IMG/VR virus record: IMGVR_UViG_3300008117_000120 | Location: 1-38,445 of that record | DNA: 38,445 bases | Source of the DNA: a virus | Direction: 5' to 3' (one strand) | In this document: piece after piece, positions 8,791-38,285 of the stretch | Layout: each line of letters opens with the position of its first letter | Numbering within the stretch: the stretch's first letter is position 1 | Program-made: the position numbers and the translations under genes | The notes under the pieces: generated by a model | Databases searched by the model: none | What the model saw: the letters and a program-made list of their open reading frames with translations, nothing else | Told to the model about the DNA's origin: nothing

Positions 8791-8798
8791 TATTTATA
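8790..8798 (+). promoter_or_regulatory. Candidate class II (late) promoter box before fibre B
   Basis: ATATTTATA, preceded by A, with 20 bases between its end and the fibre B ATG. The same box at similar spacing precedes several structural genes. No TTTGG lies 24 bases upstream, unlike class I sites. Confidence 0.5.
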
Positions 8799-18553: not shown

Positions 18554-18585
18554 TTTGGTTGTTAAAAATAGTTTTATTATATTTA
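18554..18585 (+). promoter_or_regulatory. Candidate class I promoter (TTTGG / TATATTTA) before the cassette
   Basis: TTTGGTTGT starts at 18554 and TATATTTA at 18578, exactly 24 bases later. This resembles the Bacteroidota -33 TTTG and -7 TAnnTTTG consensus. If spacing to the start site is standard, transcription would begin at or beside the ATG at 18590, giving a leaderless message. Confidence 0.6.
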
Positions 18586-18589
18586 GGTT

Positions 18590-19570
18590 ATGGAGAAAAA
18601 TCTAGTTAAACGTGTTATAGATGCTGGAGGTGATATTACTCCTCTCCTTATTCCTGCTGAACATACTAATGGTACTGGATTAATGAATCCATCTGTGATG
18701 GTAAAAGATGGAAAAATTACTGTCATTATTAGACATGTAAATTATACATTCTACCACTCAGAGAAAAAATTATTTCAACACCCATACGGACCATTAACTT
18801 ACATTCATCCAGAAAACGATGTTCGTTTACGAACATGGAATTGGTATTGTGAAATAGGTAATGATTTTAAGGTTAGTAAATATTATAAAGTAGATACTAG
18901 CCAATTTGACATATATGAGCCACTATGGGAATTTGTAGGATTAGAGGATGCCCGTATTATTGAATGGAATAATAAATTATATCTATCAGGAGTACGTAGA
19001 GATACTACTACCAACGGGGTTGGTAGAATGGAGCTATCTGAGATACAAGTAAATAAAGATAGTGTAAAGGAGATTAGTAGAGTAAGAATTGCACCACCAA
19101 ATGATCCAAACTCATATTGTGAGAAAAATTGGATGCCAGTTATAGATAAACCATTTCACTATGTAAAATGGGCTAATCCAACTGAGCTAGTTAGAGTAAA
19201 TCCTAATGCTGGTACATCACAAACAGTTCATGTAAGCAATCCTATTTCACTTCCAAGAGATTTAAGAGGTGGATCTCAAATCCTACCATTTAAAGATGGT
19301 TACTTTGCTATTACACATGAGGTAGATTTATTTAAGAGTGAAGAGGGTAGAAAAGATGCCGTATATTATCATCGCTTTATAGTATGGGATAAGGACTTTA
19401 ATATCATTAAAGTAACACCTGAATTTCATTTCATGGATGCCGATGTTGAATTCTGTATTGGATTAGCTGATTATGGAGATGAATATTTAATCACATTTGG
19501 ATTCCAAGATAATGCAGCATATCTATTAAGAGCATCTAAAACAGTTATAGAGGAGTTTATCAATGGATAA
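18590..19570 (+). CDS. GH130-like five-bladed beta-propeller protein
   Basis: A 326-residue protein patterned like GH130/GH43-type five-bladed propellers. It has 'NPSVMVKDGKITVIIR' (residues 33-48) as the first blade, 'GLEDARI' (117-123) corresponding to the G-x-x-D-P-R substrate motif, 'EKNWMP' (178-183), 'RGGSQ' (226-230) and His243. GH130 enzymes phosphorolyse or hydrolyse mannosides; related propellers occur beside glycosyltransferases, and some act in mannosyl transfer. No signal peptide is seen, so it should act in the infected cell. The stop overlaps the next ATG by 8 bases. The sugar substrate is not readable. Confidence 0.65.
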   Translation: MEKNLVKRVIDAGGDITPLLIPAEHTNGTGLMNPSVMVKDGKITVIIRHVNYTFYHSEKKLFQHPYGPLTYIHPENDVRLRTWNWYCEIGNDFKVSKYYKVDTSQFDIYEPLWEFVGLEDARIIEWNNKLYLSGVRRDTTTNGVGRMELSEIQVNKDSVKEISRVRIAPPNDPNSYCEKNWMPVIDKPFHYVKWANPTELVRVNPNAGTSQTVHVSNPISLPRDLRGGSQILPFKDGYFAITHEVDLFKSEEGRKDAVYYHRFIVWDKDFNIIKVTPEFHFMDADVEFCIGLADYGDEYLITFGFQDNAAYLLRASKTVIEEFING

Positions 19571-20696
19571 GATATACATTATAAATTATTTGGCCAATAA
19601 AATTAAGGCAAAATCATATCTTGAGATAGGTGTTGATCAAGGCATTAGTTTTAAAGATATAAACATAGAACATAAAGTAGGAGTTGATCCATTCTCACCA
19701 TATCCAGGAGTTATTAAAGAGGAATCAGATACTTTCTTTAAAACCAACACAGAAAAATTTGATATTATATTAGTAGATGGATTACATCATGCTGATCAAG
19801 TTTATAGAGACATTATTAATGCTTTAGAATGTTTAAACCTACATGGTTATATTATATGCCATGATATGCTTCCTACCAATTATGATATGCAAGTAATTCC
19901 ATTTAGTAGTGGAATGTGGACAGGTGATTGTTGGAAAGCATTTGTAGAATTAAGACAAACAAGAAATGATCTTGATATGTTTACTATAGACACCGATATG
20001 GGATTAGGTGTTATTAGAAAAGGTAAACAAACTTTATTAGATACAACTGATCCAATAAATTACTTTCACTTTAGCAACAATAAACATAAGTGGATGAATA
20101 TAGTTTCACTCCCTGATTTTTATAAAAAGATGGGTGAAAAAGATGTATTAAAAGCACTATTAAACCACTATATAGCCTACCCAAATAATCCAGAAATTAA
20201 CTTCTATATGGGTGTATATTATCAGGGTATAGGACAGACAGCATCAGCTGTATCATATTATTTAAGAGCGGCTGAAAGAACATATGATGATTTAGTGCGT
20301 TATGAATGCTTACTAAGGGCAGGAATGTGCTTTGATTCACAAGGTAGCAGAAATAATTCAGTAGAGGGAATGCTACAACATGCGGTAGCGCTAATGCCTT
20401 ATAGACCAGAGGGATATTATTATTTAAGTAGATTTTATGAGCGTGCTGAAAAATGGTTTAATAGCTATCTTATAGCTAGTATAGGTGATAAAGTAGCCAA
20501 TAGAGTTCCTACACCATTAAAAACAGATTTAGATTATCCTGGATTCTATGGTGTTATATTTGAAAGAGCAGTTAGTGCTTGGTGGTGTGGATTGTGTGAG
20601 GAATCGAGAAACATATTTAGATATTTATTAGAGAATGAACCACTAAATGATGTTCATAAACAAGCTGTATTAAATAATTTAAACCGTATAGGATGA
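19563..20696 (+). CDS. Methyltransferase fused to a TPR-like helical domain
   Basis: A 377-residue protein. Residues about 15-150 look like a class I methyltransferase of the Methyltransf_24 type: 'SYLEIGVDQG' (motif I, Glu21/Gly23), 'VGVDPF' (40-44), 'DIILVDGLHHAD' with Asp72, and 'ICHDM' with His100-Asp101. Residues about 190-377 are helical with TPR character ('NPEINFYMGVYYQGIGQ', 'RPEGYYYLSRFYERAEKW'), resembling repeats found in O-linked glycosyltransferases and their partners. Methylation of a sugar or protein side chain is plausible. The start overlaps the upstream gene by 8 bases and the stop shares ATGA with the next, so translation is coupled. Confidence 0.7.
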   Translation: MDKIYIINYLANKIKAKSYLEIGVDQGISFKDINIEHKVGVDPFSPYPGVIKEESDTFFKTNTEKFDIILVDGLHHADQVYRDIINALECLNLHGYIICHDMLPTNYDMQVIPFSSGMWTGDCWKAFVELRQTRNDLDMFTIDTDMGLGVIRKGKQTLLDTTDPINYFHFSNNKHKWMNIVSLPDFYKKMGEKDVLKALLNHYIAYPNNPEINFYMGVYYQGIGQTASAVSYYLRAAERTYDDLVRYECLLRAGMCFDSQGSRNNSVEGMLQHAVALMPYRPEGYYYLSRFYERAEKWFNSYLIASIGDKVANRVPTPLKTDLDYPGFYGVIFERAVSAWWCGLCEESRNIFRYLLENEPLNDVHKQAVLNNLNRIG

Positions 20697-21358
20697 AATA
20701 TATTGACAACAACCCAGAATCAGAATGGGGAATAGTGGAAACAGACCAGTGTGGAGTATCTAATTTAAAAGATAAACGATTCTTCGTTGTAGATAACTTC
20801 TACGCTGATCCTATAGCTGTAAGGAATTTTGCCTTACAACAAACATATTTTCCAGGAGAGGGTGCTGTAGGTCATCGCACTAGAAAACAATTTATGTTTG
20901 ATGGTGTAAGAGAGGCGTTTGAAAGTATTATTGGGGTAAAAATTGCAGATCGTGATAATGGATATGGATGGTTTGATGAGGGAATTAATGGACGCTTTCA
21001 ATATTGCCCTGCAGGTACACCATCAGTATTTCATTGTGATTCTCAAAAATGGGCAGCTGTAATTTATCTAACACCAGATGCCCCACCTCAATCAGGTACT
21101 AGCTTCCTTAGACATAAGGAAACTAAAATATTTCACAATAGTCAAATTAATTGGGATGCTGGTGAGGGATTTAAAGTATTTAACCAAAAAACATTTCTAG
21201 ACGGTACACCATACGAGACAGTTGATGTTGTAGGAAATGTATTTAATAGATTAGTTATATTTGATGGTGGATTAATCCACTCTGGAATAAATTACTTTGG
21301 ATGGGATATTGAAAGTAGTAGATTATTCCATATATTCTTCTTTAACGAGCAACAATGA
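20693..21358 (+). CDS. 2-oxoglutarate/Fe(II) oxygenase-like protein (DUF6445-like)
   Basis: A 221-residue protein carrying the full metal triad in correct order and spacing: His114-x-Asp116 ('FHCDSQKW'), distal His196 ('GGLIHSG') and Arg210 ('SSRLFHIFFF') for 2-oxoglutarate. The 'AAVIYLTPDAPPQSGTSF' stretch is the usual strand after the HxD motif. It resembles DUF6445-type relatives of prolyl hydroxylases. It probably hydroxylates a protein or sugar, but the target is unknown. Start and stop each share ATGA with a neighbour, locking its expression to the methyltransferase and the glycosyltransferase. Confidence 0.78.
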   Translation: MKYIDNNPESEWGIVETDQCGVSNLKDKRFFVVDNFYADPIAVRNFALQQTYFPGEGAVGHRTRKQFMFDGVREAFESIIGVKIADRDNGYGWFDEGINGRFQYCPAGTPSVFHCDSQKWAAVIYLTPDAPPQSGTSFLRHKETKIFHNSQINWDAGEGFKVFNQKTFLDGTPYETVDVVGNVFNRLVIFDGGLIHSGINYFGWDIESSRLFHIFFFNEQQ

Positions 21359-22122
21359 TACCAGTTATAGGAACAGCAGTTATGAAAAACCCTCATTGGG
21401 TAGAGCGCCTATACAAAAGTATAGACTATCCAGTAGATAACTTCGTTATATTCAACAATAACGGTAAGGGTGAAATAACACAAGAGCTAGAGGCGCTACG
21501 TGATATTGATCATAAATTTGTAAATAAACTTACAATATGCCATTTACCTACTAATTTAGGTGTATCATGTGTTTGGAATTTAATTATTAAATCCTATGTT
21601 AATGCACCTTACTGGATTATAGTAAATGATGATGTTGCATTTACAGATGGTTTATTAGAGGAAATGTATATAGCAGCTCAACAAGATGTTGGATTAGTAT
21701 TTCCATATGGAGGTGATTTTGGACAAGGTGCTTGGGATTTATTTCTAATTAAAGATTCAGTAATCCAAAGCCACGGACTATTTGATGAAAATCTAACACC
21801 AGCATATTGTGAGGATGCTGATTATATTATGCGTTTAAATAACCATCCAGTAAATAAAATATGCAATTTAAGTAAACCATATTTACATGGTCCTGGATTG
21901 TATAATGAATATTATACTCATGGTAGCCAAACTAAAAAATCAAGTATTGAGCTTAATGATAGATTAAACGAGATTAATTTAATTAACTTTAAATACATGA
22001 CCGAAAAATGGGGTGAAGGATGGCGCGTAACTGAGCCATACAGACATCCATTTAATAACGATACGTTGCCTCTATCCACGACCACTTATGACATATCATT
22101 TATAAGAAGTAAACAGATTTAA
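21355..22122 (+). CDS. GT2-like glycosyltransferase
   Basis: A 255-residue GT-A fold protein. It has an N-terminal strand 'IPVIGTAVM', 'NFVIFNNNG' and 'TNLGVSCVWNLII' (the nucleotide-sugar binding region of family 2 enzymes), 'YWIIVNDDVAF' with Asp92-Asp93 as the metal-binding DxD-type motif, and 'YCEDADYIMRL' with Glu153-Asp154 as the likely base region. No membrane segment is seen, so it is cytoplasmic. It shares ATGA with the oxygenase gene upstream. Such phage enzymes can glycosylate virion proteins, DNA or host surface; position behind Thr-rich fibres favours virion protein, by inference. Confidence 0.8.
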   Translation: MIPVIGTAVMKNPHWVERLYKSIDYPVDNFVIFNNNGKGEITQELEALRDIDHKFVNKLTICHLPTNLGVSCVWNLIIKSYVNAPYWIIVNDDVAFTDGLLEEMYIAAQQDVGLVFPYGGDFGQGAWDLFLIKDSVIQSHGLFDENLTPAYCEDADYIMRLNNHPVNKICNLSKPYLHGPGLYNEYYTHGSQTKKSSIELNDRLNEINLINFKYMTEKWGEGWRVTEPYRHPFNNDTLPLSTTTYDISFIRSKQI

Positions 22123-22128
22123 AACAAA

Positions 22129-22160
22129 TTTGGTTGTCTCCTAAAAAGATGATATATTTA
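22129..22160 (+). promoter_or_regulatory. Candidate class I promoter before the small-protein group
   Basis: TTTGGTTGT at 22129 and TATATTTA at 22153, the same 24-base phasing as three other sites. The predicted start near 22165 leaves about a 20-base leader before the ATG at 22185. Confidence 0.6.
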
Positions 22161-22184
22161 TATACACAATAAAATAAATTAAAT

Positions 22185-22385
22185 ATGTTAACAACTATCC
22201 TCGTATTAGCTGTAATCGCTGCTGTAGTATTCTTCTTAATGAAGAAGGGTAAAATTGCCGATGCTAACAACAACAACATTCCTGATGCTATTGAAAATAA
22301 AGTAGCTGAAGTTAAGGAAGAAGTTAAAGAAGTAGTAAAAAAAGCTAAGAAAACAACTGCTAAGAAAGCAAAAACACAAAAATAA
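22185..22385 (+). CDS. Small single-span membrane protein with Lys-rich tail
   Basis: A 66-residue protein. Residues 2-19 ('LTTILVLAVIAAVVFFLM') form one transmembrane helix, followed by a KKGK stop-transfer cluster, placing the C-terminus in the cytoplasm. Residues about 26-35 ('DANNNNIPDA') resemble a calcium-binding loop of the thrombospondin type 3 or dockerin kind. The rest is a Glu/Lys-rich helix ending in a very basic tail that could bind nucleic acid or acidic lipid. It could anchor phage components to the inner membrane or modify the envelope; function is unknown. Confidence 0.72.
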   Translation: MLTTILVLAVIAAVVFFLMKKGKIADANNNNIPDAIENKVAEVKEEVKEVVKKAKKTTAKKAKTQK

Positions 22386-22388
22386 TAT

Positions 22389-22850
22389 ATGGAAAAAATT
22401 ACATTGAAGTTATCTGAGTTCTATCAACTCGAGGCTGAATTGAATGGTCTTACTAACCAACAAACTGGTGAAGTAATTTCAAAAGGCTTATTGAGCGAAA
22501 AAATCAAATTAACTACAAAGTATTGGTTACATGACCTTAATAAGAAGGTTGCTGCTGAAAAAGAATCAGTAGAGAAACTTAAAGAGGAATTAATCAAGAA
22601 GTACGGTAAAGAAGAAAACGGTGCTATTAGTATTCCTCTCTATATCAATGAAGTAATTGATGAAGAGACTAAAGAAGTAGTATCACGTGAATTAAACCCT
22701 GACTTTGTTAAGTTTCAAAATGATTTTAACGCTTTACTAAGTGAAGAGCGTGAATTAGAATATCGCACTTTCAAATTAGAAGAATTTGATGGTGTTGAAA
22801 CTGAAGGTGTTTATAACACATTCTTTAAGTTAGTAAAAGTTGATGAATAA
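22389..22850 (+). CDS. Hypothetical helical protein
   Basis: A 153-residue, charged (Glu/Lys-rich), mostly helical protein that I do not recognise. A central coiled-coil-prone segment lies around residues 45-75 ('LHDLNKKVAAEKESVEKLKE'). It starts three bases after the membrane protein gene, and its stop overlaps the next start. C-ending codons are frequent, as in highly expressed genes of this window. The context is a cluster of small proteins ahead of the tail sheath; its role is unknown. Confidence 0.7.
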   Translation: MEKITLKLSEFYQLEAELNGLTNQQTGEVISKGLLSEKIKLTTKYWLHDLNKKVAAEKESVEKLKEELIKKYGKEENGAISIPLYINEVIDEETKEVVSRELNPDFVKFQNDFNALLSEERELEYRTFKLEEFDGVETEGVYNTFFKLVKVDE

Positions 22851-23076
22851 AATATCTGAAATATTTCAGGCGTGGGTAGCCTCGGCTAGACCCACTCCTG
22901 AACAACTTTCAATTGCTCAATATCGCTCACAAGTTTGTGATAGCTGTCCACACAAAAAATTTGTAACAGCAATCCAAACATTTGTATGTGGTGAATGTGG
23001 ATGCCCATTGAGCAAAAAAGTATTTTCACCTAAACCAGGACCACAAGCTTGCCCATTAGCTAAATGGGAACAATAA
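22843..23076 (+). CDS. Cys-rich putative zinc-ribbon protein
   Basis: A small protein of 77 residues if the ATG at 22843 is used; a TTG three bases earlier is possible but less likely. It contains 'VCDSCPH', 'CGECGCPL' and 'ACPLAKW', six to seven Cys arranged as two C-x2-C knuckles plus extra Cys, typical of a zinc ribbon that binds nucleic acid or protein. It overlaps the upstream stop by 8 bases, so translation is coupled. No catalytic domain is present. Confidence 0.68.
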   Translation: MNKISEIFQAWVASARPTPEQLSIAQYRSQVCDSCPHKKFVTAIQTFVCGECGCPLSKKVFSPKPGPQACPLAKWEQ

Positions 23077-23085
23077 TAAAACGTT

Positions 23086-23352
23086 ATGGCACAACTTACA
23101 CCAGAGGAATTACAATCTATTAGAGATTTACAATCTAAGTACAACCAAACAATCCTTGAGATTGGTGCATCTGAAGCACAGCTAATCGTATTTCAAGAAA
23201 ATATTGAAAAATTGACCGATGCTAAAAAAGGTTTAGTATCTGATTTAAAAACAATCGAGCAAAAAGAATCAGAGCTTATTAAAACCTTACAAGAAAAATA
23301 CGGTCAAGGCAGTATAGATATTAATACGGGAGAAATCACACCTATCCAGTAA
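23086..23352 (+). CDS. Small coiled-coil protein
   Basis: An 88-residue protein almost wholly predicted as coiled coil: heptad-like hydrophobics run from 'LQSIRDLQSKYNQTILEI' through about residue 76, followed by a short 'IDINTGEITPIQ' tail. No membrane segment or Cys. It lies nine bases after the zinc-ribbon gene and is the last gene before the sheath transcription unit. Function is unknown; assembly factor or scaffold is a guess. Confidence 0.68.
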   Translation: MAQLTPEELQSIRDLQSKYNQTILEIGASEAQLIVFQENIEKLTDAKKGLVSDLKTIEQKESELIKTLQEKYGQGSIDINTGEITPIQ

Positions 23353-23380
23353 TAGTTTCGCGTTTTGTAATGGGTTTTGG

Positions 23381-23389
23381 ATATTTATT
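23381..23389 (+). promoter_or_regulatory. Candidate class II promoter box before tail sheath
   Basis: ATATTTATT, preceded by G, lies 44 bases before the sheath ATG, farther than at other class II sites. A 6-base inverted repeat (ATTAGG at 23390-23395 and CCTAAT at 23401-23406) follows at once and could fold in the leader. TTTCG lies where class I has TTTGG, so class membership is uncertain. Confidence 0.45.
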
Positions 23390-23433
23390 ATTAGGTCAAT
23401 CCTAATTAAATTTTCAAAAACAATTAATACAAA

Positions 23434-25563
23434 ATGGCAGAACAAATTTTATCTCCAGGCGTATTCCAAAATGAATCTGACCAATCGTTAGTTCAGAGGG
23501 GTATTCAAGGTACTGCAACAGCAATTGTTGGTCCAACTGTGTTGGGTCAACCATTCGTTCCTACCTATGTTACTTCTTACAGTGAATTCGCAGCAAAATT
23601 CGGAGAAACATTTAAAAGTGGTAGTTACAACTACGAATACTTTACATCAATGGCCGCTAGGGATTTCTTCCAAAATGGTGGTCAAACATTACTCGTAACT
23701 AGAATTGTAAATGGTAGTGGTAGCTCAGCAATGAGTACTTACGCTTCAGCTAGTGTTGGTAACCAAACTCCAACTACTGGTGATAAATTTGCTACTGGTA
23801 GTGGTGCTATAGCTGCTGCTTTTACTGCTAACCAAGAAGTTAGAGTAACTTACGGAAGTACTGTATATCGCTTTATTGCTGTAGATAACACAACTCTTGG
23901 TCCTCAAGATGATGTAGATGGTAACTTATATTACTTTGCTACAGGATCAACAGCAGCCGCTCAAGCTACTAACGTAGCAGCTGTAATTAACCGTGCAATA
24001 TCAGGATCTGCAGCTAGCGCTAGTGTAAACTTAGTAGTAGCTTCAACAAGTACTGCTACTTTAATTCTTTCAGGATCTTCAGCTGGTACATTTGCTAACG
24101 GAATTACAGTAGCAACTGGATCGGCTTCAAGTTTCTCTACTTTAATTACTTTAGGTGGTGGTACTAATACATCCGATACTGGAAATGCATTTGTACTTGA
24201 AACATTAGCTTGGGGTAATACAATGAATAACACCTCTAGCTTATCAGCAGGTGCTTTAGCTAGTGGTAGTACAGTAAACGTTCGTTGGGAAATTACGCAA
24301 GTAAGTACTGGTAGTGGTACATTTACCTTAGCTATTCGTCAAGGTAATGATAATACTGCTCAACCTAACTATATAGAAACATGGCCTAATTTATCATTAG
24401 ACCCAGCCTTACCAAACTTTATCTCTCGTGTAATTGGTGATTATAAACCAATGTTCCGTTTAGATGTTGATGGTGAGCCATATATTGATATTACTGGTTC
24501 TTACGCTAATGCTTCTCAGTATGTGCGTGTTAAATCAGTAAACCCAACAATTGATTCAATTGATAATAATGGATTCTTTAAATCAGGTTCCTTAAGCGGT
24601 AGCTTACCAGCATTAGGAAGTGGATCATATGGTGGTTCATTTGGTGGTGGTTTAACTGCTACTTCACTTGCACAATTAATGAACGAAAATATCACAGCAA
24701 CTAACGTTCAAGGTTTCCAACCAGCTGATTATATTACTGCTTTCAATTTATTAGCAAATAAAGATGATTTCCGCTTTAATGTATTATTAGCTCCAGGTGT
24801 TACTTTAGACAATAGTGCAGTATCAACTATGATTTCTACTTGTGAGGGTCGTGGTGATGCAATTGCTGTTGTAGACACTAAATTATATGGCGCTGTAGTA
24901 TCAACAGCTGCAACAGCTGCTGCTGGTCAAAACAGTAATTATGCTGCAACATATTGGCCTTGGGTACAGTTATTTAGCTCTGGATTAGGTAAGGCTGTAT
25001 GGGCTCCTCCATCAACAGTAATGGGTGGTGTTTATGCCTTCAACGATCAGGTTGCTGCTAGCTGGTTTGCTCCTGCAGGTTTAAATCGTGGTGGTGTTCC
25101 TTCAGTATTACGTGCTGAAAGAAAATTATCTCAAAACGATCGCGATACATTATATGATGCAAGTGTTAACCCATTAGCTACATTCCCTGGAGAAGGTGTT
25201 GTAGTATTTGGTCAGAAAACATTACAGAAAAAATCAACAGCATTAGATCGTGTAAACGTTCGTCGCTTATTAATTGCATTAAAAGATTACATTGGTCAAG
25301 TAGCTAATAACTTAGTATTCGAACAAAATACTAACGTTACTCGTAACCGCTTCTTAAGCCAAGTAAATCCATACATGGAATCAGTAGTACAACGTCAAGG
25401 TTTATACGCTTACAAAGTAGTGATGGATGAATCAAACAACACTCCTGATGTAATCGATCGTAACCAATTAGTAGGTCAGATCTATATCCAACCAACTAAG
25501 ACTGCTGAATTCATTATATTGAACTTCAACGTACAACCAACTGGCGCTACATTCCCTGCCTAA
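23434..25563 (+). CDS. 18: Contractile tail sheath protein (gp18-like)
   Basis: A 709-residue protein with the classic sheath N-terminus 'SPGVFQNESDQS' then 'GTATAIVGPTVLGQPFVP' and a 'SYSEFAAKFGE' segment. The C-terminus is the conserved core: 'RRLLIALKDYIGQVANNLVF', 'NPYMESVVQRQGLYAYKVV' and 'VGQIYIQPTKTAEFIILNF'. It polymerises around the tube and contracts at infection. Residues about 95-300 are Ser/Gly/Thr-rich and variable, likely the outward-facing insertion domains. It is slightly longer than T4 gp18 (about 660 residues). C-rich codons near the 3' end fit high expression. The tube gene follows after about 50 bases. Confidence 0.95.
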   Translation: MAEQILSPGVFQNESDQSLVQRGIQGTATAIVGPTVLGQPFVPTYVTSYSEFAAKFGETFKSGSYNYEYFTSMAARDFFQNGGQTLLVTRIVNGSGSSAMSTYASASVGNQTPTTGDKFATGSGAIAAAFTANQEVRVTYGSTVYRFIAVDNTTLGPQDDVDGNLYYFATGSTAAAQATNVAAVINRAISGSAASASVNLVVASTSTATLILSGSSAGTFANGITVATGSASSFSTLITLGGGTNTSDTGNAFVLETLAWGNTMNNTSSLSAGALASGSTVNVRWEITQVSTGSGTFTLAIRQGNDNTAQPNYIETWPNLSLDPALPNFISRVIGDYKPMFRLDVDGEPYIDITGSYANASQYVRVKSVNPTIDSIDNNGFFKSGSLSGSLPALGSGSYGGSFGGGLTATSLAQLMNENITATNVQGFQPADYITAFNLLANKDDFRFNVLLAPGVTLDNSAVSTMISTCEGRGDAIAVVDTKLYGAVVSTAATAAAGQNSNYAATYWPWVQLFSSGLGKAVWAPPSTVMGGVYAFNDQVAASWFAPAGLNRGGVPSVLRAERKLSQNDRDTLYDASVNPLATFPGEGVVVFGQKTLQKKSTALDRVNVRRLLIALKDYIGQVANNLVFEQNTNVTRNRFLSQVNPYMESVVQRQGLYAYKVVMDESNNTPDVIDRNQLVGQIYIQPTKTAEFIILNFNVQPTGATFPA

Positions 25564-25572
25564 GGGGATGTA
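25548..25572 (+). terminator. Hairpin spanning the sheath stop codon
   Basis: Arms 25548-25557 and 25563-25572 pair over 10 bases with one G-U, and the loop is GCCTA. No U-run follows, so it may attenuate transcription or protect the mRNA 3' end rather than terminate fully. A class II promoter box follows at 25580. Confidence 0.45.
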
Positions 25573-25579
25573 GTTGCTA

Positions 25580-25588
25580 ATATTTATT
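25580..25588 (+). promoter_or_regulatory. Candidate class II promoter box before tail tube
   Basis: AATATTTATT, 24 bases between box and ATG. The box sits between inverted arms TTGCTA (25574-25579) and TAGCAA (25591-25596). Confidence 0.5.
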
Positions 25589-25612
25589 AATAGCAATTAA
25601 ACACAAAATAAA

Positions 25613-26098
25613 ATGGCAGTATTAGACGCTAACGAAATCATGTTTACCGCTTTTGAACCAAAAGTTCAAAATAGGTTTATCATGTACATCGATGGTATCC
25701 CAGCATATTTGATTAAGGCAGCCGCTGCTCCTGGATTTGAAGCTGGTGAAATTATCTTAGATCATATCAACGTATACCGTAAAGTAAAAGGAAAAGTACG
25801 TTGGAACGATATGCAATTAAGCCTTTACGACCCAGTAACTCCATCAGGCGCACAAGCTGTAATGGAATGGGCTCGTTTGGCACACGAATCAGTAACTGGA
25901 CGCGATGGTTACTCTGATTTCTATAAAAAAGATTTAACTTTAGATATTTTAGGTCCTGTAGGCGATATCGTAGGTGAGTGGATTATTAAAGGTGCTTATG
26001 TTAAAACAGCTACTTTCGGTGAATACGATTGGGCTAACGAGGCAGCTATCAACTTAACCGTTAACATCGCTATGGATTATTGCGTATTGAACTTCTAA
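25613..26098 (+). CDS. 19: Tail tube protein (gp19-like)
   Basis: A 161-residue protein of normal tail-tube length, directly after the sheath as in T4-like phages. It has 'FEPKVQNRFIMYIDGIPAYLIKAA' at the start (the strand pair that packs in the tube ring), 'VRWNDMQLSLYDPV' and 'GAYVKTATFGEYDWANEAA' near the end. Hexameric rings of this protein form the inner tube that carries DNA and is driven through the envelope. It has its own promoter-like box and a strong terminator, so it is probably made as a single-gene message in large amounts. Codons are biased to C-ending forms. Confidence 0.94.
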   Translation: MAVLDANEIMFTAFEPKVQNRFIMYIDGIPAYLIKAAAAPGFEAGEIILDHINVYRKVKGKVRWNDMQLSLYDPVTPSGAQAVMEWARLAHESVTGRDGYSDFYKKDLTLDILGPVGDIVGEWIIKGAYVKTATFGEYDWANEAAINLTVNIAMDYCVLNF

Positions 26099-26123
26099 TT
26101 CCCCTCTATATCTCTTTCTTTAA

Positions 26124-26154
26124 GGCGTCTGCTTTTGCAGACGTCTTTTTTTTT
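26124..26154 (+). terminator. Rho-independent terminator after tail tube
   Basis: Arms GGCGTCTGC (26124-26132) and GCAGACGTC (26137-26145) pair over 9 bases with one G-U, with a TTTT loop and nine T (26146-26154). It separates the tube message from the next promoter box four bases later. Confidence 0.9.
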
Positions 26155-26157
26155 CGT

Positions 26158-26166
26158 ATATTTATA
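26158..26166 (+). promoter_or_regulatory. Candidate promoter box before the gp26-like gene
   Basis: ATATTTATA preceded by T, 20 bases before the ATG at 26187 and directly after the terminator. TTTTG in the terminator loop lies where class I sites have TTTGG, but the match is poor, so it is grouped with class II. Confidence 0.5.
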
Positions 26167-26186
26167 TATATAACAAATAAAAGTTT

Positions 26187-26930
26187 ATGGCTGAATTAAA
26201 AATTCCAACAGAAACAGTTTCGCTACCATCAAAAGGATTATTATATCCCGAAACATCCCCACTAGCTAAGGGGCAAATTGAAATGAAATATATGACGGCT
26301 AAGGAAGAAGATATCCTTACTAACGTTAACTATATTAAAAACGGAACCGTTATTGATAAATTATTACAATCACTGATCATTACCCCGATTGATTATAATG
26401 AACTATTAATTGGTGATAAAAATGCAATATTAGTTGCTGCTCGTATTTTAGGATATGGTAAAGATTATAGTATTAACTATGGTGGTAAAGAATTTAATAT
26501 TGATTTATCTAAACTAGAAGATAAAGTAGTTGATGAATCATTATTTAAACGCGGAATAAACGAATTTAATTTTACATTACCACACTCAGGCAATAATATT
26601 ACTTTTAAATTATTAACGCACGGTGATGAACAGAAAATAGAGGCTGAGATTAGGGGTATGCAAAAAATCAACCCAAATGCTACTACAGACGTTACAACCC
26701 GCTTAAAACATATCATTACCTCAGTTGAAGGTAAACGTGAACAAAAAGATATTCGTGATTTTGTTGATAATTATTTAATTGCTAAAGATTCAAGAGCATT
26801 AAGACAACATTATGGCAAAATATCTCCGGATATTAATTTAAAATATATTCCAGAAGATGTAGACTATGTAGGGGAGGGCATAGATATTCCAATATCTATT
26901 AGCTTTTTTTGGCCTGACTCTGGAATATAG
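26187..26930 (+). CDS. T4_baseplate / gp26-like protein, putative tail assembly chaperone
   Basis: A 247-residue protein with 'VSLPSKGLLYPETSPL' then 'IEMKYMTAKEEDILTN', 'IDYNELLIGDKNAILVAARILGYG', and a C-terminal 'YIPEDVDYVGEGIDIPISISFFWPD'. This layout matches the T4 gp26-like baseplate family (T4_baseplate). It lies directly before the tape measure, where most tailed phages encode a tail assembly chaperone pair joined by frameshifting. The frame ends at 26930, but a run of seven T at 26904-26910 near the end, followed by an open +1 frame, suggests a longer form (see next entry). Soluble, no membrane segment. Confidence 0.78.
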   Translation: MAELKIPTETVSLPSKGLLYPETSPLAKGQIEMKYMTAKEEDILTNVNYIKNGTVIDKLLQSLIITPIDYNELLIGDKNAILVAARILGYGKDYSINYGGKEFNIDLSKLEDKVVDESLFKRGINEFNFTLPHSGNNITFKLLTHGDEQKIEAEIRGMQKINPNATTDVTTRLKHIITSVEGKREQKDIRDFVDNYLIAKDSRALRQHYGKISPDINLKYIPEDVDYVGEGIDIPISISFFWPDSGI

Positions 26931-27186: not shown

Positions 27187-27194
27187 GCGCTTTT
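27169..27194 (+). terminator. Terminator overlapping the stop of the frameshift ORF
   Basis: Perfect 10-base arms 27169-27178 and 27184-27193 with loop AAAAG, and four T at 27191-27194. The right arm begins with the TAG stop. A class II box starts two bases later. Confidence 0.75.
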
Positions 27195-27195
27195 A

Positions 27196-27204
27196 ATATT
27201 TATA
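27196..27204 (+). promoter_or_regulatory. Candidate class II promoter box before tape measure
   Basis: AATATTTATA directly after the terminator hairpin, 17 bases before the ATG at 27222. Confidence 0.52.
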
Positions 27205-27221
27205 TGTCGTAACACCATATT

Positions 27222-29696: not shown

Positions 29697-29703
29697 CCAT
29701 TAA

Positions 29704-29712
29704 ATATTTATA
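29704..29712 (+). promoter_or_regulatory. Candidate class II promoter box before the baseplate run
   Basis: AATATTTATA, 21 bases before the ATG at 29734. It could serve the tightly spaced run from 29734 to 36550, where no further box is seen. Confidence 0.52.
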
Positions 29713-29733
29713 CGAAACATCAAACTAAATAAC

Positions 29734-30039
29734 ATGAGTTTAATCGACAAATTACGTACACAAGGTACTTTAAGTATGAGAGGTGGCCAACCAGCTAACT
29801 TTGGTGTTAATCCAGTTCCACCAAACTCATTACATAATTTATACTCTGTAGATGGTCAACCTCCTGTTACCTGGAGATTAATCCCAGGCAACTTATCAAT
29901 GAGACCACAACCATCTACATTAGATGAATTAGATCCAAACGCGATCAACTTAACACCAAACGGTGTAGTATCACAAGTGTACAAATCTAGAACAGGACGT
30001 CAGTACAAAGACTTAGGTCCACGTGACGGACGCTACTAA
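29734..30039 (+). CDS. Small structural protein of the baseplate run
   Basis: A 101-residue protein, Pro-, Asn- and Gly-rich, starting 'MSLIDKLRTQGTLSMRG' and ending 'GRQYKDLGPRDGRY'. No membrane segment, Cys or catalytic motif. Much of it looks extended rather than globular, which suits a clamp or linker between virion proteins. It is the first gene of the run to the hub and ends nine bases before the next. I do not recognise a family. Confidence 0.65.
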   Translation: MSLIDKLRTQGTLSMRGGQPANFGVNPVPPNSLHNLYSVDGQPPVTWRLIPGNLSMRPQPSTLDELDPNAINLTPNGVVSQVYKSRTGRQYKDLGPRDGRY

Positions 30040-30048
30040 TAGTATAAG

Positions 30049-32301: not shown

Positions 32302-32312
32302 AATAATTTAAA

Positions 32313-32621
32313 ATGAATCGCTACGAAAATCAAATCATATTACGTACTGAAACTACAGATAAACCTTACTACAAGGGAAGATATTACCCAAATATTCCTT
32401 TGTCAGAGTCTGATGTGTATGTTATTACTAATGTAGGAGATAGACTTGATAACTTAGCTTATGTTTATTATGGTGATGCTACTATGTGGTGGGTTATAGC
32501 AATGGCTAATAATAACGCTACTAGAGGTGCATTATACCCAACACCAGGTACTCAATTACGAATACCTACTAATTTAACGGCTGTATTAAATCAATACAAA
32601 CAATTTAACGTAGCTAGATAA
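32313..32621 (+). CDS. gp53-like baseplate protein with LysM fold
   Basis: A 102-residue protein. Residues about 40-90 follow the LysM pattern: 'VGDRLDNLAYVYYGDATMWWVIAMANN', then 'PGTQLRIPTNL'. Contractile-tail baseplates use such LysM proteins (T4 gp53, phage P2 gpX-type) to join wedges to the hub. It is followed directly by the hub-peptidase gene, matching the 53-5 gene order of T4, where gene 5 is the hub lysozyme. The start is 11 bases after the previous stop, with an A-rich leader. Confidence 0.83.
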   Translation: MNRYENQIILRTETTDKPYYKGRYYPNIPLSESDVYVITNVGDRLDNLAYVYYGDATMWWVIAMANNNATRGALYPTPGTQLRIPTNLTAVLNQYKQFNVAR

Positions 32622-32625
32622 TGTT

Positions 32626-35600
32626 ATGTCAATATTTAAAGATACACTTAAAAAAGATATTCAAGATCAGCTAAAGGTAAGACAAGATGCCTTAGTTGAA
32701 CGCACCCCCACTTCAATCCAGTATTTAAATGCTCGTAATGCCTGGATTAGAATGACCTCTGCGGTTAATACTTATACAGGACCTGTACCTGCTACAAGTG
32801 CTAGTTTAGCTGATGAAAAAAATTACACAAATACATTAGCTAAACAACACGTTTTACAAGGAGGTGTATTATATGAAGGAAATACCGCTAGAGTAGGTGT
32901 TGGTACAGGAAATCAAGCATATAGTTTAATTAATCAAAGTGGTGTTGTTGCAAACAGATTAGGTATTCGCCCTATGCCTGGCATTACAGGCATAGATGTT
33001 AAATCTAAATCAGCATACGGTTCACTAAGAGAGGTAACAGTTAATTTTATTGCTTGGGATATTCGCCAACTTGAAGAATTAGAATTACTCTATATGCGTC
33101 CAGGGTATACTGTACTTGTAGAGTGGGGATGGGCTCCATATCTAAATAATGAGGGAAATTTATCTAAAAATGTCAATTATTACGATATTTTAAATAATAC
33201 CCCCGATAAAGAAACTATATTTAAAAATTTGTATGATGATGCTGTTAAAGAATACGACGGCAATTATGATGCAATGTTTGGATATGTTAAAAATTATAGC
33301 TGGAGTGCTCGTGATGATGGTGGATATGATTGTACTACTGAAATTATATCGGTAGGTGAGGTAATGGAATCATTAAAAGTTAACTATGCTCCATTTAATG
33401 ATTTAGATAGAATATCTAAAACAGGATTAATTGCTCCTAGAGTAGAAGATATATCATTATCGGATTTACCTGATTTAAAAAAATATTACTCTAAAAATGT
33501 ACTAGCTGGTTTATTTTATGAGTTGTATACTATAGCAAATAAAAAAATGCCTGGTACACAAGATAAAGGAGATAACCTTACTATTAAAGATAATGTAAGT
33601 GGATCTGTTAGTTACTACGATCTATTTAAAAAAACACTTAACATATCTGGAGGCCCAGCAGAGGCTAGCAGTAATGGTAAAATTGGAGCTAGTGATGAAC
33701 AAATATACATTACATTAGAAGGCTTATGTAATGTAATTAATAATTATGTTACATTTAAAGACTCAAATAGTAAAAGTGCCTTTGTAAAATGCTCAGTATT
33801 AGATAGAGAATATGTTACTAATAATACAGGATCTAATGCACTAACAGGAGATGGATATTTATTATGTCTAGCACATCCTTTACAATTATCTGTAGATCCA
33901 ACTGTAGCTATAATTAAAAGCCCCGTATGGGCTAATGGATTTAAAGTTAATCCAGATACAATAGCACCTACTTCCTCAACGGGATTTAATTTAATTACAT
34001 TTTCAAGTAAATTAAGCGATGCTGATTTAAATAATATATTAGATCAAATATACTATATAGCTGTTAGTACTAAAACCAAAACAGCTAAAAGTAAACAAGC
34101 TATTGTTGATTATATTAAACAAAAAACACAACAAGATCCAGATACAGTTAGAGCATTAACTAAACTTCATTTTGAAAAGTTAAAAAACCCTAACTATAAA
34201 ATTAATAAACCAGCAAATGTTGATTTAATTAATTCCGCTATTGATGATATAAACAATATTGATAATACTAAATTAAATAAAACATTAGCTGCCTCTGGTG
34301 TTGGAAATCAAGTTTCATTATTTGCATTTTTACAAAGAAATTTTCTTACTGGGTTAAGTACACAACAAGTAAATGAGGCTTTTGGAAAGGCAGTTGAATT
34401 TACCAAATCAGATCCTGTAGCTACTCAACAAGCTGAATTAAATAAAGAGAAAAAAGCTTTAGAATCATCACAAACTAAAGCTATAGAAAATCTACAATAT
34501 TTAAATAATATTATAAGACCATACTTTTATCAAAATGATTGGAAAACAGAGTTAGGTATTATAGGAAATATATATGTTAATTTAAATTTCTTATTTAGAT
34601 TAGCTTTAGATAATAATTTAGAATCATTAGATACTAAAGAGAAAAAAGATATTAATCTATATAACTTTTTAAAAAGTGTATTATCTGAAGTTTCGGCTGC
34701 TAATGGTAATGTAAATAACTTTGATTTATTTGTTGATCCTGAAGATAGTAAAATATACATTATAGATATTAATTATGTTGATTCTAAACCAAGATCTGAG
34801 GTGTATGAAAATATATTTCAATTAGAAATGCATAATTTAAAATCTACAGTTAGATCTTACAAACTAGAATCACAAATATTCCCAGATCAATCAGCTACAG
34901 TAGCTATTGCAGCACAAGTAGGTGGAGGTGCTATGGCAACTGATAATAATACAATGTTAGATTTTAATAAAGGTTTATTAGATAGAATTATACCTAAAAA
35001 AACAGATCCAACAATAGATCCTGATCAACCTACATTTGAAAAAGTTAAAGCTCAACTTCAAAGTGTAACTGACTCTCTTCAATCACTATATGATTTTTTT
35101 GGAGATCAAGATTATGGTTGGTTTACTGATGGAGATTTTGATGCTGATAAAGCAAGTGATTATAAAAATTCATTAAAAGATTTAATTAATTTCTTTAAAA
35201 ATTTAACTAAATCAAATATTAAAAATAGAGCTATTATTCCTACTAAACTATCTGTTACTATGGATGGTATTGGAGGATTAGTAATAGGTCACTTATTTAA
35301 AATACCCCCTGATTTATTGCCTAAAGGATATCAAGGTGCATCATTAGGATCAAAATTAGGATATACTATTACAGGTATAGGACATTCTATTAAAGATAAT
35401 GATTGGACAACTAACATTGATGCTCAAACTATTATATTAGATAATCCACAAGGTGGTGTTTTAAATTTTAATGATTTAGTAACTGTAAACCCAAAAGGAA
35501 ATTTGGAAACTAAAGCAAAAACTGATATAAATAATACCAGAAGATCAGCCTCTGGAGGTGCTAAAAAATCTATTTGTGGTCAAGTAAGAACAAATGGTGC

Positions 35601-36036
35601 TATAGAAGATATTTTAGTAAGTATAAGACCTGGCCTTTATGCTCGTCACTACAGCTCAGTAAATCAAAGTGATGAAAAACGTATTAGACTTCAACCTAAT
35701 GCTATAAGAGATTTAGAAGCACTATTAATTGATGCTTTTAGCGCTGGTATTCTTATTAAGGTTAACTCAGCATATAGAACACGTGATGATCAAGAAAGAA
35801 TTAAAGCAGCATCAGCGGCGTCAGGCATTCCAGCAGCAACCCCAGGAACATCAAATCATGGATTTGGATTAGCAGTTGATTTGGCTGATAAAAATGGTGT
35901 TAGAATTAATCCAATTAAAACACCTAAAGAATGGGCTTGGATTCAAGAAAATAAAGCAAAATATGGATTTGAAAATATAAATAATGGTAATGAATCACAT
36001 CACTACGATTATCAAAAACCAGGAATAACTTGCTAA
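32626..36036 (+). CDS. Baseplate hub protein fused to an M15 (VanY-type) peptidase
   Basis: A 1,136-residue protein. The N-terminus (about 90-260) has 'SLREVTVNFIAWDIRQLEELELLYMRPG' and 'LVEWGW', a hub-type beta domain. Around 870-950 a second hub element appears ('LSVTMDGIGGLVIGH', 'YTITGIGHSIKDNDWTTNI'), like the final barrel of gp27/gpD-type hub proteins. Residues about 990-1136 form a D-Ala-D-Ala carboxypeptidase/endopeptidase domain of family M15: 'SAYRTRDDQ' (from 1047), zinc motif Ser1076-x-His1078 to Asp1085, and Glu1123 to His1126 near the end. It probably sits at the tail tip and cuts peptidoglycan peptide bonds on entry, a counterpart of the gp5 lysozyme of T4. Confidence 0.85.
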   Translation: MSIFKDTLKKDIQDQLKVRQDALVERTPTSIQYLNARNAWIRMTSAVNTYTGPVPATSASLADEKNYTNTLAKQHVLQGGVLYEGNTARVGVGTGNQAYSLINQSGVVANRLGIRPMPGITGIDVKSKSAYGSLREVTVNFIAWDIRQLEELELLYMRPGYTVLVEWGWAPYLNNEGNLSKNVNYYDILNNTPDKETIFKNLYDDAVKEYDGNYDAMFGYVKNYSWSARDDGGYDCTTEIISVGEVMESLKVNYAPFNDLDRISKTGLIAPRVEDISLSDLPDLKKYYSKNVLAGLFYELYTIANKKMPGTQDKGDNLTIKDNVSGSVSYYDLFKKTLNISGGPAEASSNGKIGASDEQIYITLEGLCNVINNYVTFKDSNSKSAFVKCSVLDREYVTNNTGSNALTGDGYLLCLAHPLQLSVDPTVAIIKSPVWANGFKVNPDTIAPTSSTGFNLITFSSKLSDADLNNILDQIYYIAVSTKTKTAKSKQAIVDYIKQKTQQDPDTVRALTKLHFEKLKNPNYKINKPANVDLINSAIDDINNIDNTKLNKTLAASGVGNQVSLFAFLQRNFLTGLSTQQVNEAFGKAVEFTKSDPVATQQAELNKEKKALESSQTKAIENLQYLNNIIRPYFYQNDWKTELGIIGNIYVNLNFLFRLALDNNLESLDTKEKKDINLYNFLKSVLSEVSAANGNVNNFDLFVDPEDSKIYIIDINYVDSKPRSEVYENIFQLEMHNLKSTVRSYKLESQIFPDQSATVAIAAQVGGGAMATDNNTMLDFNKGLLDRIIPKKTDPTIDPDQPTFEKVKAQLQSVTDSLQSLYDFFGDQDYGWFTDGDFDADKASDYKNSLKDLINFFKNLTKSNIKNRAIIPTKLSVTMDGIGGLVIGHLFKIPPDLLPKGYQGASLGSKLGYTITGIGHSIKDNDWTTNIDAQTIILDNPQGGVLNFNDLVTVNPKGNLETKAKTDINNTRRSASGGAKKSICGQVRTNGAIEDILVSIRPGLYARHYSSVNQSDEKRIRLQPNAIRDLEALLIDAFSAGILIKVNSAYRTRDDQERIKAASAASGIPAATPGTSNHGFGLAVDLADKNGVRINPIKTPKEWAWIQENKAKYGFENINNGNESHHYDYQKPGITC

Positions 36037-36037
36037 T

Positions 36038-36550
36038 ATGAGAGTACCAGCAAATACAATAGAAATAAAATATACATCAGGTGATGAATTTGTATTTTCA
36101 TTTAACTACAAATTTTATCAAGGATATTATTATGAGTTTAATGATAAATTTTTTGCTGGTAAAGAATTTGATATTAATGCTCCTGAATTAATTAGATCTA
36201 AAGGAAGAGAAGTTAATACTGCATTAACAAATCCAAAAACATTTATTTACGGATCATTAAGTAAAGTAAAACCAAGTAATAAAAGACCTGCTTCGTTTAT
36301 TTATAAATACGAAAGTGATGTTAGATATTTTACTTACAATGCAAGCACTAATATTATTAGAGAGATAAGTAAAATAACATATGATGAATTTAAAGACAAT
36401 CCATATTATATTTCTGTTGTTTTAAATTATAAAGGTGGATTTAACGATATTGAATTAAACGAGGCTGAAAAGAAAATTCCTGGTATAAAGACCTTCGTAA
36501 ATACCTCCTATGTACGTCCACAAAATGAAGATAGTGGTTTGGTGGGCTAA
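36038..36550 (+). CDS. Hypothetical protein after the hub gene
   Basis: A 170-residue protein rich in Tyr, Phe, Lys and Asn, starting one base after the hub stop (TAATATG), so it is probably coupled to it. Strand-rich start 'NTIEIKYTSGDEFVFSFNYKFYQGYYYEF'. No membrane segment, signal peptide, Cys or known motif. A baseplate role is likely from context, for example a partner of the hub-peptidase; it ends the structural run. The -33 part of the next promoter candidate overlaps its last codons. Confidence 0.65.
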   Translation: MRVPANTIEIKYTSGDEFVFSFNYKFYQGYYYEFNDKFFAGKEFDINAPELIRSKGREVNTALTNPKTFIYGSLSKVKPSNKRPASFIYKYESDVRYFTYNASTNIIREISKITYDEFKDNPYYISVVLNYKGGFNDIELNEAEKKIPGIKTFVNTSYVRPQNEDSGLVG

Positions 36551-36569
36551 AAAATTTTACTTATATTTA
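36538..36569 (+). promoter_or_regulatory. Candidate class I promoter before the DNA polymerase gene
   Basis: TTTGGTGGG at 36538 and TATATTTA at 36562, again 24 bases apart. The predicted start near 36574 leaves about a 16-base leader before the ATG at 36590. Confidence 0.58.
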
Positions 36570-36589
36570 AATCATAAAGGTTATGTTAT

Positions 36590-37882
36590 ATGTTTTACGT
36601 TATAGAAAAATCATCTCAATTACCTGCTAAGTTTGGAGATTGCTTTATTAGGTTTATTCCTAAAAACAATAATTTCCATCCTGCACTTACCGATTTGAGT
36701 TTAATTTATATTCGTCCTCTTGATGATAAGAAAGGATATGTCATTTGCCTTGATCATACTGAATCGTTTGGTATTGATAAGGTAGAGGTATTAGATTGGT
36801 TATTAGAACACACAGGTAATCTGTGGGTATTAAATAAAAAGAAAGCGCTACATTGGATGTATCCGCTGGCTGACAAGCTGTTTGATGTTAATTTTATTAG
36901 TTTCGTTGACACTGGTACAGGCACTAGGTGTACTGATTATTATTATAATAAGTATCCTAGTTTGCCTAATACCAATTGTTTAATTCCAATTAGTAAACAT
37001 TATGAGGAGAGTGAGGTAATGTTTTCTGAGGTATTATCTTTAATTCAACAGTATAATTTATTAGATACACAGCTTCAATTTCAAAATTTCCATACTACTC
37101 ATGTATTTTATCAAATTGAAAAAAATGGTATAAAGGTTGATAAAACATGCTTTGTTGATTTCTATAAGGACAAACTACAATACCCAGAATTTAATTTACA
37201 TAAAGGTAAAGTATATACTCAATATAATTTATACACCACTACCTCACGCCCCTCAAATACATTTAATAATACTAACTATGCTGCATTAAATAAAGATAAT
37301 GGCGAGCGTGAGTGCTATAAACCTACAAATGATAAATTTGTTGAGATGGATTTTCAGGGATATCACCCACGTTTGATAGGTAAGATGATTGATTTTAAAT
37401 TTCCTAAAGATCAAAATACATACGATTATTTAGGTGGATTACTTGGTGTAAGTGCACAAGAGGCCAAAGAATTAACATTCAAACAATTATACGGTGGTGT
37501 ATGGAGCGAATATCGTGATAAACCATTTTTTAAAGATGTAGCAACATTTACAGATGAGCTATGGGATGACTTTAAAGGTAGTGGCTACATAACAACTAAA
37601 AATAAAACGTTTAAACGCATTGAGCTACCTGATATGATACCTGCTAAATTATTAAATTACGTCGTTCAAAGCGCAGAAACAGCAACAAATATAACATTAT
37701 TAGAATTAATATTAAAATATTTAGAGGATAAAAAAACTAAATTAGTTCTGTATACCTATGATGCGTTTTTATTTGATTACGCTAAAGAGGATGGAGACAT
37801 ATTACAAGAAATTGTAGATATACTTGAATACCCCGTTGGTATTAAACAAGGTATCACATATCATGGTTTGAAAAAAATATAA
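36590..37882 (+). CDS. Compact family A DNA polymerase-like protein
   Basis: A 430-residue protein with the family A (Pol I/T7-type) palm and finger motifs in order: a 'TSRPSN' stretch (218-223, Arg220) matching the TGRLSS region before motif A, motif A 'MDFQGYHPRLIG' with Asp254, motif B as Lys293 to Tyr301-Gly302 ('KELTFKQLYGG'), and motif C 'YTYDAFLFDY' with Asp391. Both metal-binding Asp are kept, but the usual H-D-E of motif C reads Y-D-A. Residues 1-150 resemble a decayed exonuclease domain without a clear D-x-E site. It is far shorter than T7 polymerase (704), so the thumb must be small or missing. A second subunit or accessory role is possible. Confidence 0.75.
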   Translation: MFYVIEKSSQLPAKFGDCFIRFIPKNNNFHPALTDLSLIYIRPLDDKKGYVICLDHTESFGIDKVEVLDWLLEHTGNLWVLNKKKALHWMYPLADKLFDVNFISFVDTGTGTRCTDYYYNKYPSLPNTNCLIPISKHYEESEVMFSEVLSLIQQYNLLDTQLQFQNFHTTHVFYQIEKNGIKVDKTCFVDFYKDKLQYPEFNLHKGKVYTQYNLYTTTSRPSNTFNNTNYAALNKDNGERECYKPTNDKFVEMDFQGYHPRLIGKMIDFKFPKDQNTYDYLGGLLGVSAQEAKELTFKQLYGGVWSEYRDKPFFKDVATFTDELWDDFKGSGYITTKNKTFKRIELPDMIPAKLLNYVVQSAETATNITLLELILKYLEDKKTKLVLYTYDAFLFDYAKEDGDILQEIVDILEYPVGIKQGITYHGLKKI

Positions 37883-37888
37883 ATATTT

Positions 37889-38107
37889 ATGATGGACAAT
37901 ACATTTTACGATTTGAACAAACTATTCTGCACATTTACCTCAAAGGACGAAATAGAGTCGGTAATTACCACCAAAGCGAAGAACTTATGTGTACATATAA
38001 TATTGATATGGGTAATATGTCTGATGCTCCGTTACCAAACACAATATTGTTACATCGCAAAAAAGAAAGTAATACACTGTACACCATTAATGCTCTTAAT
38101 ACATTAA
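37889..38107 (+). CDS. Possible N-terminal part of the small gene between polymerase and SSB
   Basis: This frame starts with ATG-ATG seven bases after the polymerase stop and reads 'MDNTFYDLNKLFCTFTSKD', then 'ESVITTKAKN'. Purines at first codon positions are frequent up to about 37985, as in real genes here. Beyond that it becomes a hydrophobic Cys/Trp-rich string typical of a shadow frame, while the -1 frame takes on coding character. It is probably the first part of one gene continued at 37987-38253, through either a frameshift or a base error; it could also be spurious. Confidence 0.35.
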   Translation: MMDNTFYDLNKLFCTFTSKDEIESVITTKAKNLCVHIILIWVICLMLRYQTQYCYIAKKKVIHCTPLMLLIH

Positions 38108-38253
38108 TTAAGAAACTAAACGGAGGTGTACTGGATACTAAATATATCGTTAATTGGCACGACTATAAAAATAGTATACTGCTCACTAACGGCCCTGAAC
38201 TGCGCAAATTAGATACAGCAATCCACAAGATCATAGATTTGTCTGCTAGATAA
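37987..38253 (+). CDS. Hypothetical protein between polymerase and SSB (start uncertain)
   Basis: An 88-residue frame from ATG 37987, reading 'MCTYNIDMGNMSDAPLPN', 'LYTINALNTLIKKLNGG' and 'DTKYIVNWHDYKNSILL', with codon use like neighbouring genes. No family is recognised. The same frame is open upstream to 37846 without an ATG, GTG or TTG, so the true start may lie in the other frame at 37889 and be joined by a frameshift. It ends 51 bases before the SSB gene. A role in replication or its control is possible by position only. Confidence 0.6.
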   Translation: MCTYNIDMGNMSDAPLPNTILLHRKKESNTLYTINALNTLIKKLNGGVLDTKYIVNWHDYKNSILLTNGPELRKLDTAIHKIIDLSAR

Positions 38254-38285
38254 TTTGGTAGTTTAAAGATTAGGTTGTATATTTA
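38254..38285 (+). promoter_or_regulatory. Candidate class I promoter before the gp32-like gene
   Basis: TTTGGTAGT at 38254 and TATATTTA at 38278, with 24-base phasing as at the three other class I sites. Predicted leader about 15 bases before the ATG at 38305. Confidence 0.6.

Follow-up and report, generated by a model that had tools for sequence, protein, structure and literature searches.

In phage T4, late promoters consist of TATAAATA with no -35 box and are read by gp55 together with gp33 and the clamp, and middle promoters pair a MotA box at -30 with a sigma70 -10 element, AsiA and MotA redirecting the host sigma. Among the Bacteroidota, the sigma-A promoters mapped in Flavobacterium psychrophilum carry TAnnTTTG at −12 to −5 (PMC9723704). 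The transcription of T4-like phages infecting Bacteroidota appears to be little described, and a full-text literature search returned no paper on their promoters or on the motif reported here, an absence that is not proof. We analyzed IMG/VR record IMGVR_UViG_3300008117_000120, a 38,445-base fragment (hereafter the window) that comes from the part of a T4-like myovirus genome devoted to tail and baseplate and has every gene on the + strand. Its subject is a two-box element, TTTGG-N19-TATATTTA, which the original prediction had read as a host-type promoter of non-structural genes. The closest named relatives of the window are the Flavobacterium phages “immuto”, which have the same gene order and a tail sheath 47% identical to that of the window.

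A scan of the window confirmed four exact copies of the element, at 18554, 22129, 36538 and 38254, all on the + strand and none on the −. Such a count does not arise by chance (0.00 copies in 100 dinucleotide-preserving shuffles and a mean of 0.006 in 2000 Markov-1 sequences), and with the pattern left open to every 5-mer and 8-mer and to gaps from 10 to 30, just one random sequence among 300 produced a four-fold repeat, which bears out the earlier view that the shared spacing exceeds what AT-richness would give. That view had missed a fifth site at 26133, TTTTG-N19-TATATTTA, which has one mismatch and the same 24-nucleotide phase and stands before the baseplate hub gene (26187-26930); most relatives have TTTGG at this position. 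The boxes at 18578, 22153, 36562, 38278 and 26157 end 4, 24, 20, 19 and 22 nucleotides, respectively, before an ATG. All the sites do precede genes, as had been proposed. At the first, TTTGG (18554-18558) and TATATTTA (18578-18585) make up an element at 18554..18585 whose box is only 4 nucleotides from the ATG at 18590 of a four-gene cassette. The site at 22129..22161 precedes a group of small-protein genes (ATG 22185) and is kept in relatives. The one at 36538..36569 shares bases with the end of the preceding gene and stands before the gene for a fragment of family A DNA polymerase (ATG 36590), and the one at 38254..38285 precedes the gene for the single-stranded DNA-binding protein (SSB; ATG 38305). 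Both of these gene labels held up: the product of the gene at 36590 is 34% identical to the immuto family A DNA polymerase over the fragment, and the gene at 38305 is an SSB gene by synteny with that of immuto, the same motif also standing before the SSB orthologues of the related genomes G004 and G008.

We then asked how far the element, which we call class A, extends beyond the window. In a set of 1.08 Mb comprising 80 IMG/VR loci related via the sheath gene, immuto and the window, class A occurs 95 times on the + strand and never on the − at a phase of 24, and twice each at spacings of 23 and 25, many of the 95 sites being orthologous rather than independent, so that the independent tests are those on eight long contigs and the counts per genome. 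With genes called crudely (ATG open reading frames, chosen greedily), 78 of the 79 unique copies fall outside predicted genes. In the eight long contigs, TTTGG-N19-TAnnTTTA with the two middle bases left free has 30 sites, 29 of them co-directional with the genes, against 1 for a reversed-pattern control; swapping the final A for C, G or T leaves 6 co-directional and 3 opposite sites, with 8 for the control (the orientation of G002 and G003 being taken from the sheath-gene search). The first half of the box indeed varies (TATA, TAAA, TACA, TATC, TAGA, TAAC and others), as it does in the host TAnnTTTG. By comparison with immuto, the genes behind class A sites include the DNA polymerase fragment (the window and G006), SSB (G004 and G008, and the window by synteny), the DnaB helicase (G004 and G006), the baseplate hub, in four genomes, along with small unknown genes. 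Copies of the element come back at two positions, ahead of the small-protein genes and ahead of the hub gene. The non-structural sites thus belong mostly to replication genes, but the two conserved sites, 22129 and 26133 in the window, lie among tail and baseplate genes and are structural, and the claim that only non-structural genes are served is therefore wrong. Distances to start codons are fairly constant, at about 15-28 nucleotides, and some boxes end 4 nucleotides before the ATG; the gap is exactly 4 at 18554 and likewise at sites in G001, G004 and G006. Because the host convention places the box at −12 to −5, transcription at such sites would start on the A of the ATG, and the 18554 message would presumably be leaderless, beginning at 18590.

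Immuto itself has a variant of this arrangement. TTG occurs 23 nucleotides before TATATTTA 23 times on its + strand and never on the −. Most of these sites are GTTGC/GTTGG-N19-TATATTTAGGTAT and stand ahead of small genes at 60-76 kb, a region that looks early, and relatives show the same pattern with TATATTTA or TATCTTTA. The TTG within TTTGG shares its register with the immuto TTG. In G001 an additional element, GGCAAAATAA, lies a few bases upstream of TATATTTA (for example at 2423, 25888, 33825, 36084 and 48446; loci L085-L092), and GGCAAAATA occurs there 8 times on the + strand and not on the −; it is possible that GGCAAAATAA is an activator site specific to that lineage.

The layout of these sites is that of the Bacteroidota sigma-A promoter, as the original prediction had held. 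Compared with F. psychrophilum motifs SM1-3 (PMC9723704), there are two boxes at the same phase, TA and TTT are invariant and the two bases between them are free, and the distance from TTG to the box is 23 nucleotides in the window and immuto and 22-23 in the host. The phage sites differ in their fixed 19-nucleotide gap, in a -33 box that reads TTTGG or GTTGC where the host has plain TTTG, and above all in a final A in place of G. The last of these had been noticed before and treated as minor; it now appears central. Our host comparison used one Flavobacterium genome sample of 204 upstream regions and five Flavobacteriaceae genomes, from which the host of the window may differ. In the 204 regions TAnnTTTG is enriched (89 against 22.7) and TAnnTTTA is not (85 against 75.5), and a TTG 22-23 nucleotides before the box accompanies 15 G-ended boxes, where 0.5 are expected, against 1 A-ended box, where 2.0 are expected. 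Across the five genomes TTTG-N20-TATATTTG is enriched (18 against 7 in the control) and TTTG-N20-TATATTTA is not (25 against 29). Phage upstream regions give the opposite picture: TTG-N19/20 is followed by TAnnTTTA 28 times in immuto, 12 times in the window and three relatives and 4 times in G001, and by TAnnTTTG in none of them, and TAnnTTTG as such is absent upstream of immuto genes, where letter shuffles, the source of the expected counts for the phages, predict 5.1. Phage and host boxes hence have their spacing in common and their last letter opposite. AT-richness alone was considered as the origin of the final A and is rejected by the host count, the phage upstream count and the final-base swap count. 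In the unrelated phage FCL-2 it is the host-type TAnnTTTG that is enriched (10 against 3.2), and the A-ended code is therefore a property of this clade rather than of Flavobacterium phages in general; the upstream regions of phage 6H showed nothing clear for either box.

A second class of element, which we call class L, consists of the -7 box only. The strongest signal near start codons is ATATTTAT(A/T), and of the 818 upstream regions 197 contain ATATTTATA, where coding sequence would predict 0.2. The + strand of the window has 11 copies of NATATTTAT and the − strand one, and eight copies (8789, 16572, 22153, 23380, 25579, 26157, 27195 and 29703) lie 19-46 nucleotides before a gene start, mostly that of a structural gene and mostly without a -33 box. 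The form AATATTTAT stands on the + strand at 8789..8797, 22 nucleotides before a gene of 2591 codons (ATG 8819); at 16572..16580, at the end of that gene and 28 nucleotides before the ATG at 16608; at 25579..25587, 26 nucleotides before the tail tube gene (ATG 25613), named by synteny with immuto; at 27195..27203, 19 nucleotides before the gene in the tape-measure position (ATG 27222), again by synteny; and at 29703..29711, 23 nucleotides before the ATG at 29734. The form GATATTTAT is at 23380..23388 (+), 46 nucleotides before the tail sheath gene (ATG 23434). The sites at 22129 and 26133 (26133..26165, with the box at 26157-26164) carry TATATTTAT and match both classes, and 18554, 36538 and 38254 are without the trailing T. 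Class L resembles the T4 late promoters in that a single AT-rich box at -10/-7 precedes structural genes throughout the phage and in that a gp55-like candidate sigma is encoded, but its box, NATATTTAT, is of the Bacteroidota type and not TATAAT, and class A adds to TATATTTA a phased -33 box that T4 late promoters lack. In preceding replication genes (polymerase, SSB, helicase) class A is closer to the T4 middle promoters, although its upstream box is at the position of sigma region 4 and is not a MotA box at -30.

A candidate reader is provided by the family of immuto gp118, which is widespread and has an orthologue in G001 at 50899-51675; genes of this type co-occur with class A promoters in the same contigs. 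Six-frame searches of four to five genomes with Pfam Sigma70_r2 and Sigma70_r4_2 found nothing, and a search with the PHROG gp55 families gave no match, its positive control also being silent and the result hence uninformative. A hidden Markov model of seven gp55 proteins matched gp118 weakly (E 0.029). The first family member falls below the curated Sigma70_r2 cut-off; with E values of 0.1 or lower, Sigma70_r2 matches 19 of the 34 members examined, the best at 2e-5, phage sigma PHROGs match members as well (phrog_234 in 3 of 34, best 0.026), and profile-profile comparison with gp55 gave E values of 1.6e-4 and 3.7e-4 at probabilities of only 51 and 36. A search of solved structures by sequence returned one weak, unrelated match. 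The AlphaFold model of the family (predicted local distance difference test score 73, core 80-92) has the fold of sigma region 2 and is closest in fold to T4 gp55 (7d7c_F; Z 9.9, root-mean-square deviation 3.0 over 110 residues); almost all other rows of the fold list are sigma factors, some aligned via the C-terminal part, with the caution that helical folds may reach Z scores of 8-13 without true kinship. Fold, Pfam and profile agree, and gp118 could be a previously unnamed sigma-like protein related to T4 gp55, from which it differs in being at least 47 residues longer, with a C-terminal helical part like a helix-turn-helix, and in an identity of about 13%. Upstream of the sigma gene itself, in the TTTGG lineage, most orthologues have TTTGG-N19-TAnnnTG (G001 50849-50899, that is L087:10849-10899, and orthologues L291-L330), with TTTGG and TA invariant in 16 aligned upstream regions. 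This third type of -7 box usually contains a G and resembles F. psychrophilum motif SM5 (TAnnTTGY). The neighbors of the sigma candidate in immuto, gp116 and gp115 (77-81.5 kb; L002:27159-31507), have no clear family matches; gp55 adjoins gp47 in cyanophages and in phage Moby, and gp116 and gp115 are possible unrecognized equivalents.

The sites are very likely real promoters of a clade of T4-like Bacteroidota myoviruses. They could in principle be signals of translation initiation or RNA processing, or remnants of terminator hairpins at the baseplate site, a reading that draws on their fairly constant distance to start codons and on the overlap of the baseplate TTTGG with a hairpin loop, but we consider it highly improbable: two boxes at a rigid 24-nucleotide phase around a free spacer, a phase that holds where the hairpin shifts and where there is none, sites that end 4 nucleotides before an ATG, and a layout equal to that of mapped host promoters all argue against it. 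What reads them is a more difficult matter. The original prediction favored ordinary host sigma-A recognition, which would make the final A a tolerated variant of TAnnTTTG. The host-like -33 TTG and 22-23-nucleotide spacing and the variable TAnn of both sets agree with this, and so does immuto, where probable early genes carry class A and must be readable early. Even so, we find it unlikely, because a variant should mix with the consensus rather than exclude it, and A-ended boxes are no commoner in the host than chance would give, both at phase and genome-wide, when phage boxes at phase are never G-ended (immuto, G001 and the window group) and the phages encode a sigma-like candidate of their own. 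A host sigma-A that is kept but redirected by a phage accessory protein, in the style of AsiA and MotA, would leave gp118 for the late NATATTTAT class only. Region 4 of the host sigma would then still read the -33 box, which suits the TTTGG that the G-containing promoter of the sigma gene and the A-ended class have in common; class A precedes PolA, SSB and DnaB, the middle-gene set of T4; and GGCAAAATAA near TATATTTA in G001 is what an activator site would give. No AsiA or MotA relative emerged from the analysis, which included no search aimed at one, and a different region 2 is the simplest explanation of the change in the -7 box; we regard this scenario as quite improbable.

The reading that we favor, and that seems on balance somewhat probable, is that the phages use promoters of their own, in which the -7 box has been switched and whose most likely reader is the host core RNA polymerase equipped with a phage sigma of the gp118 family. 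These promoters would form a clade-wide class, in which a -33 TTG, embedded in TTTGG in the lineage of the window and in GTTGC/GTTGG in Immutovirus, stands 23 nucleotides upstream of TAnnTTTA, laid out as the host sigma-A TTG/TAnnTTTG with the final G exchanged for A. Region 2 of gp118 would contact the -7 box, and the -33 box may be touched by its C-terminal part. Where no -33 box accompanies it, the same -7 core, as NATATTTAT, would make up a T4-late-like class before structural genes. A plausible circuit is one in which the host enzyme makes the sigma from the G-containing box, and the sigma then switches on the A-ended boxes. The sequences themselves show the conservation, the phase, the strand bias, the position ahead of genes, the opposition of A and G between phage and host, and the existence of the sigma-like protein; sigma recognition of the boxes, the timing of expression, the positions of transcription starts and the leaderless start at 18590 are what we infer. 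Several points weigh against this reading. Foldseek E-values of the gp118 model against the PDB are weak, the best being 0.2, and the model is of modest confidence in its C-terminal part, which makes it a guess that the phage sigma reads the -33 box. Class A in Immutovirus also precedes many small genes that look early and would require a reader at a time when no phage sigma has yet been produced, except if the sigma is packaged or the host reads the boxes weakly. The host sigma may itself be the reader of TTTGG, given that the sigma gene has its own TTTGG with a G-containing -7 box (TAnnnTG). The sigma gene is absent from the window, a 38-kb fragment. The full proposal, in which the promoter code is one base off that of the host (TAnnTTTA for TAnnTTTG) and a gp55-descended sigma with a domain reading the -33 box serves both two-box replication promoters and single-box late promoters, its own gene being driven from a G-containing box, is tentative, and we would not call it likely.

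The window holds further features of note. The promoter at 26133 has its -33 box within the loop and 3′ arm of an intrinsic terminator hairpin at 26122..26147 (+; stem 26122-26132/26137-26147 and loop TTTT, with a run of T behind it; free energy -18.1 kcal/mol, z -7.2), an overlap that is kept across the clade. In relatives the register of this hairpin moves by up to 2 bases with the 24-nucleotide phase to TATATTTA unchanged, and the idea that TTTGG is here a mere part of the terminator was rejected on that ground. Between the tail and small-protein genes, 18590-22122 is an AT-rich cassette of four genes with its own promoter, encoding an unknown protein of 326 residues, a Methyltransf_24 protein of 377, a DUF6445 protein of 221 and another unknown of 255; it looks like an inserted accessory module. 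The gene content also includes the tail sheath (Pfam Phage_sheath), a T4-type baseplate protein, a VanY peptidase and, further along, the polymerase fragment followed by SSB. Collagen-like G-T-Q-G repeats of a tail-fibre gene occupy 1-460 and 1300-1900 (an open reading frame of 1681 codons from 1420, and the repeats preceding it). Family A DNA polymerase seemingly exists as two separate genes in the clade (36590-37882 in the window; gp001 and gp199 in immuto).

This analysis yields a testable rule for mapping the promoters of T4-like Bacteroidota phages, a candidate sigma among their unannotated genes, and a one-base contrast between A and G that separates phage from host genes. These findings would aid the annotation of a large uncultured clade and might be turned into a switch for gene expression in Flavobacterium genetics.

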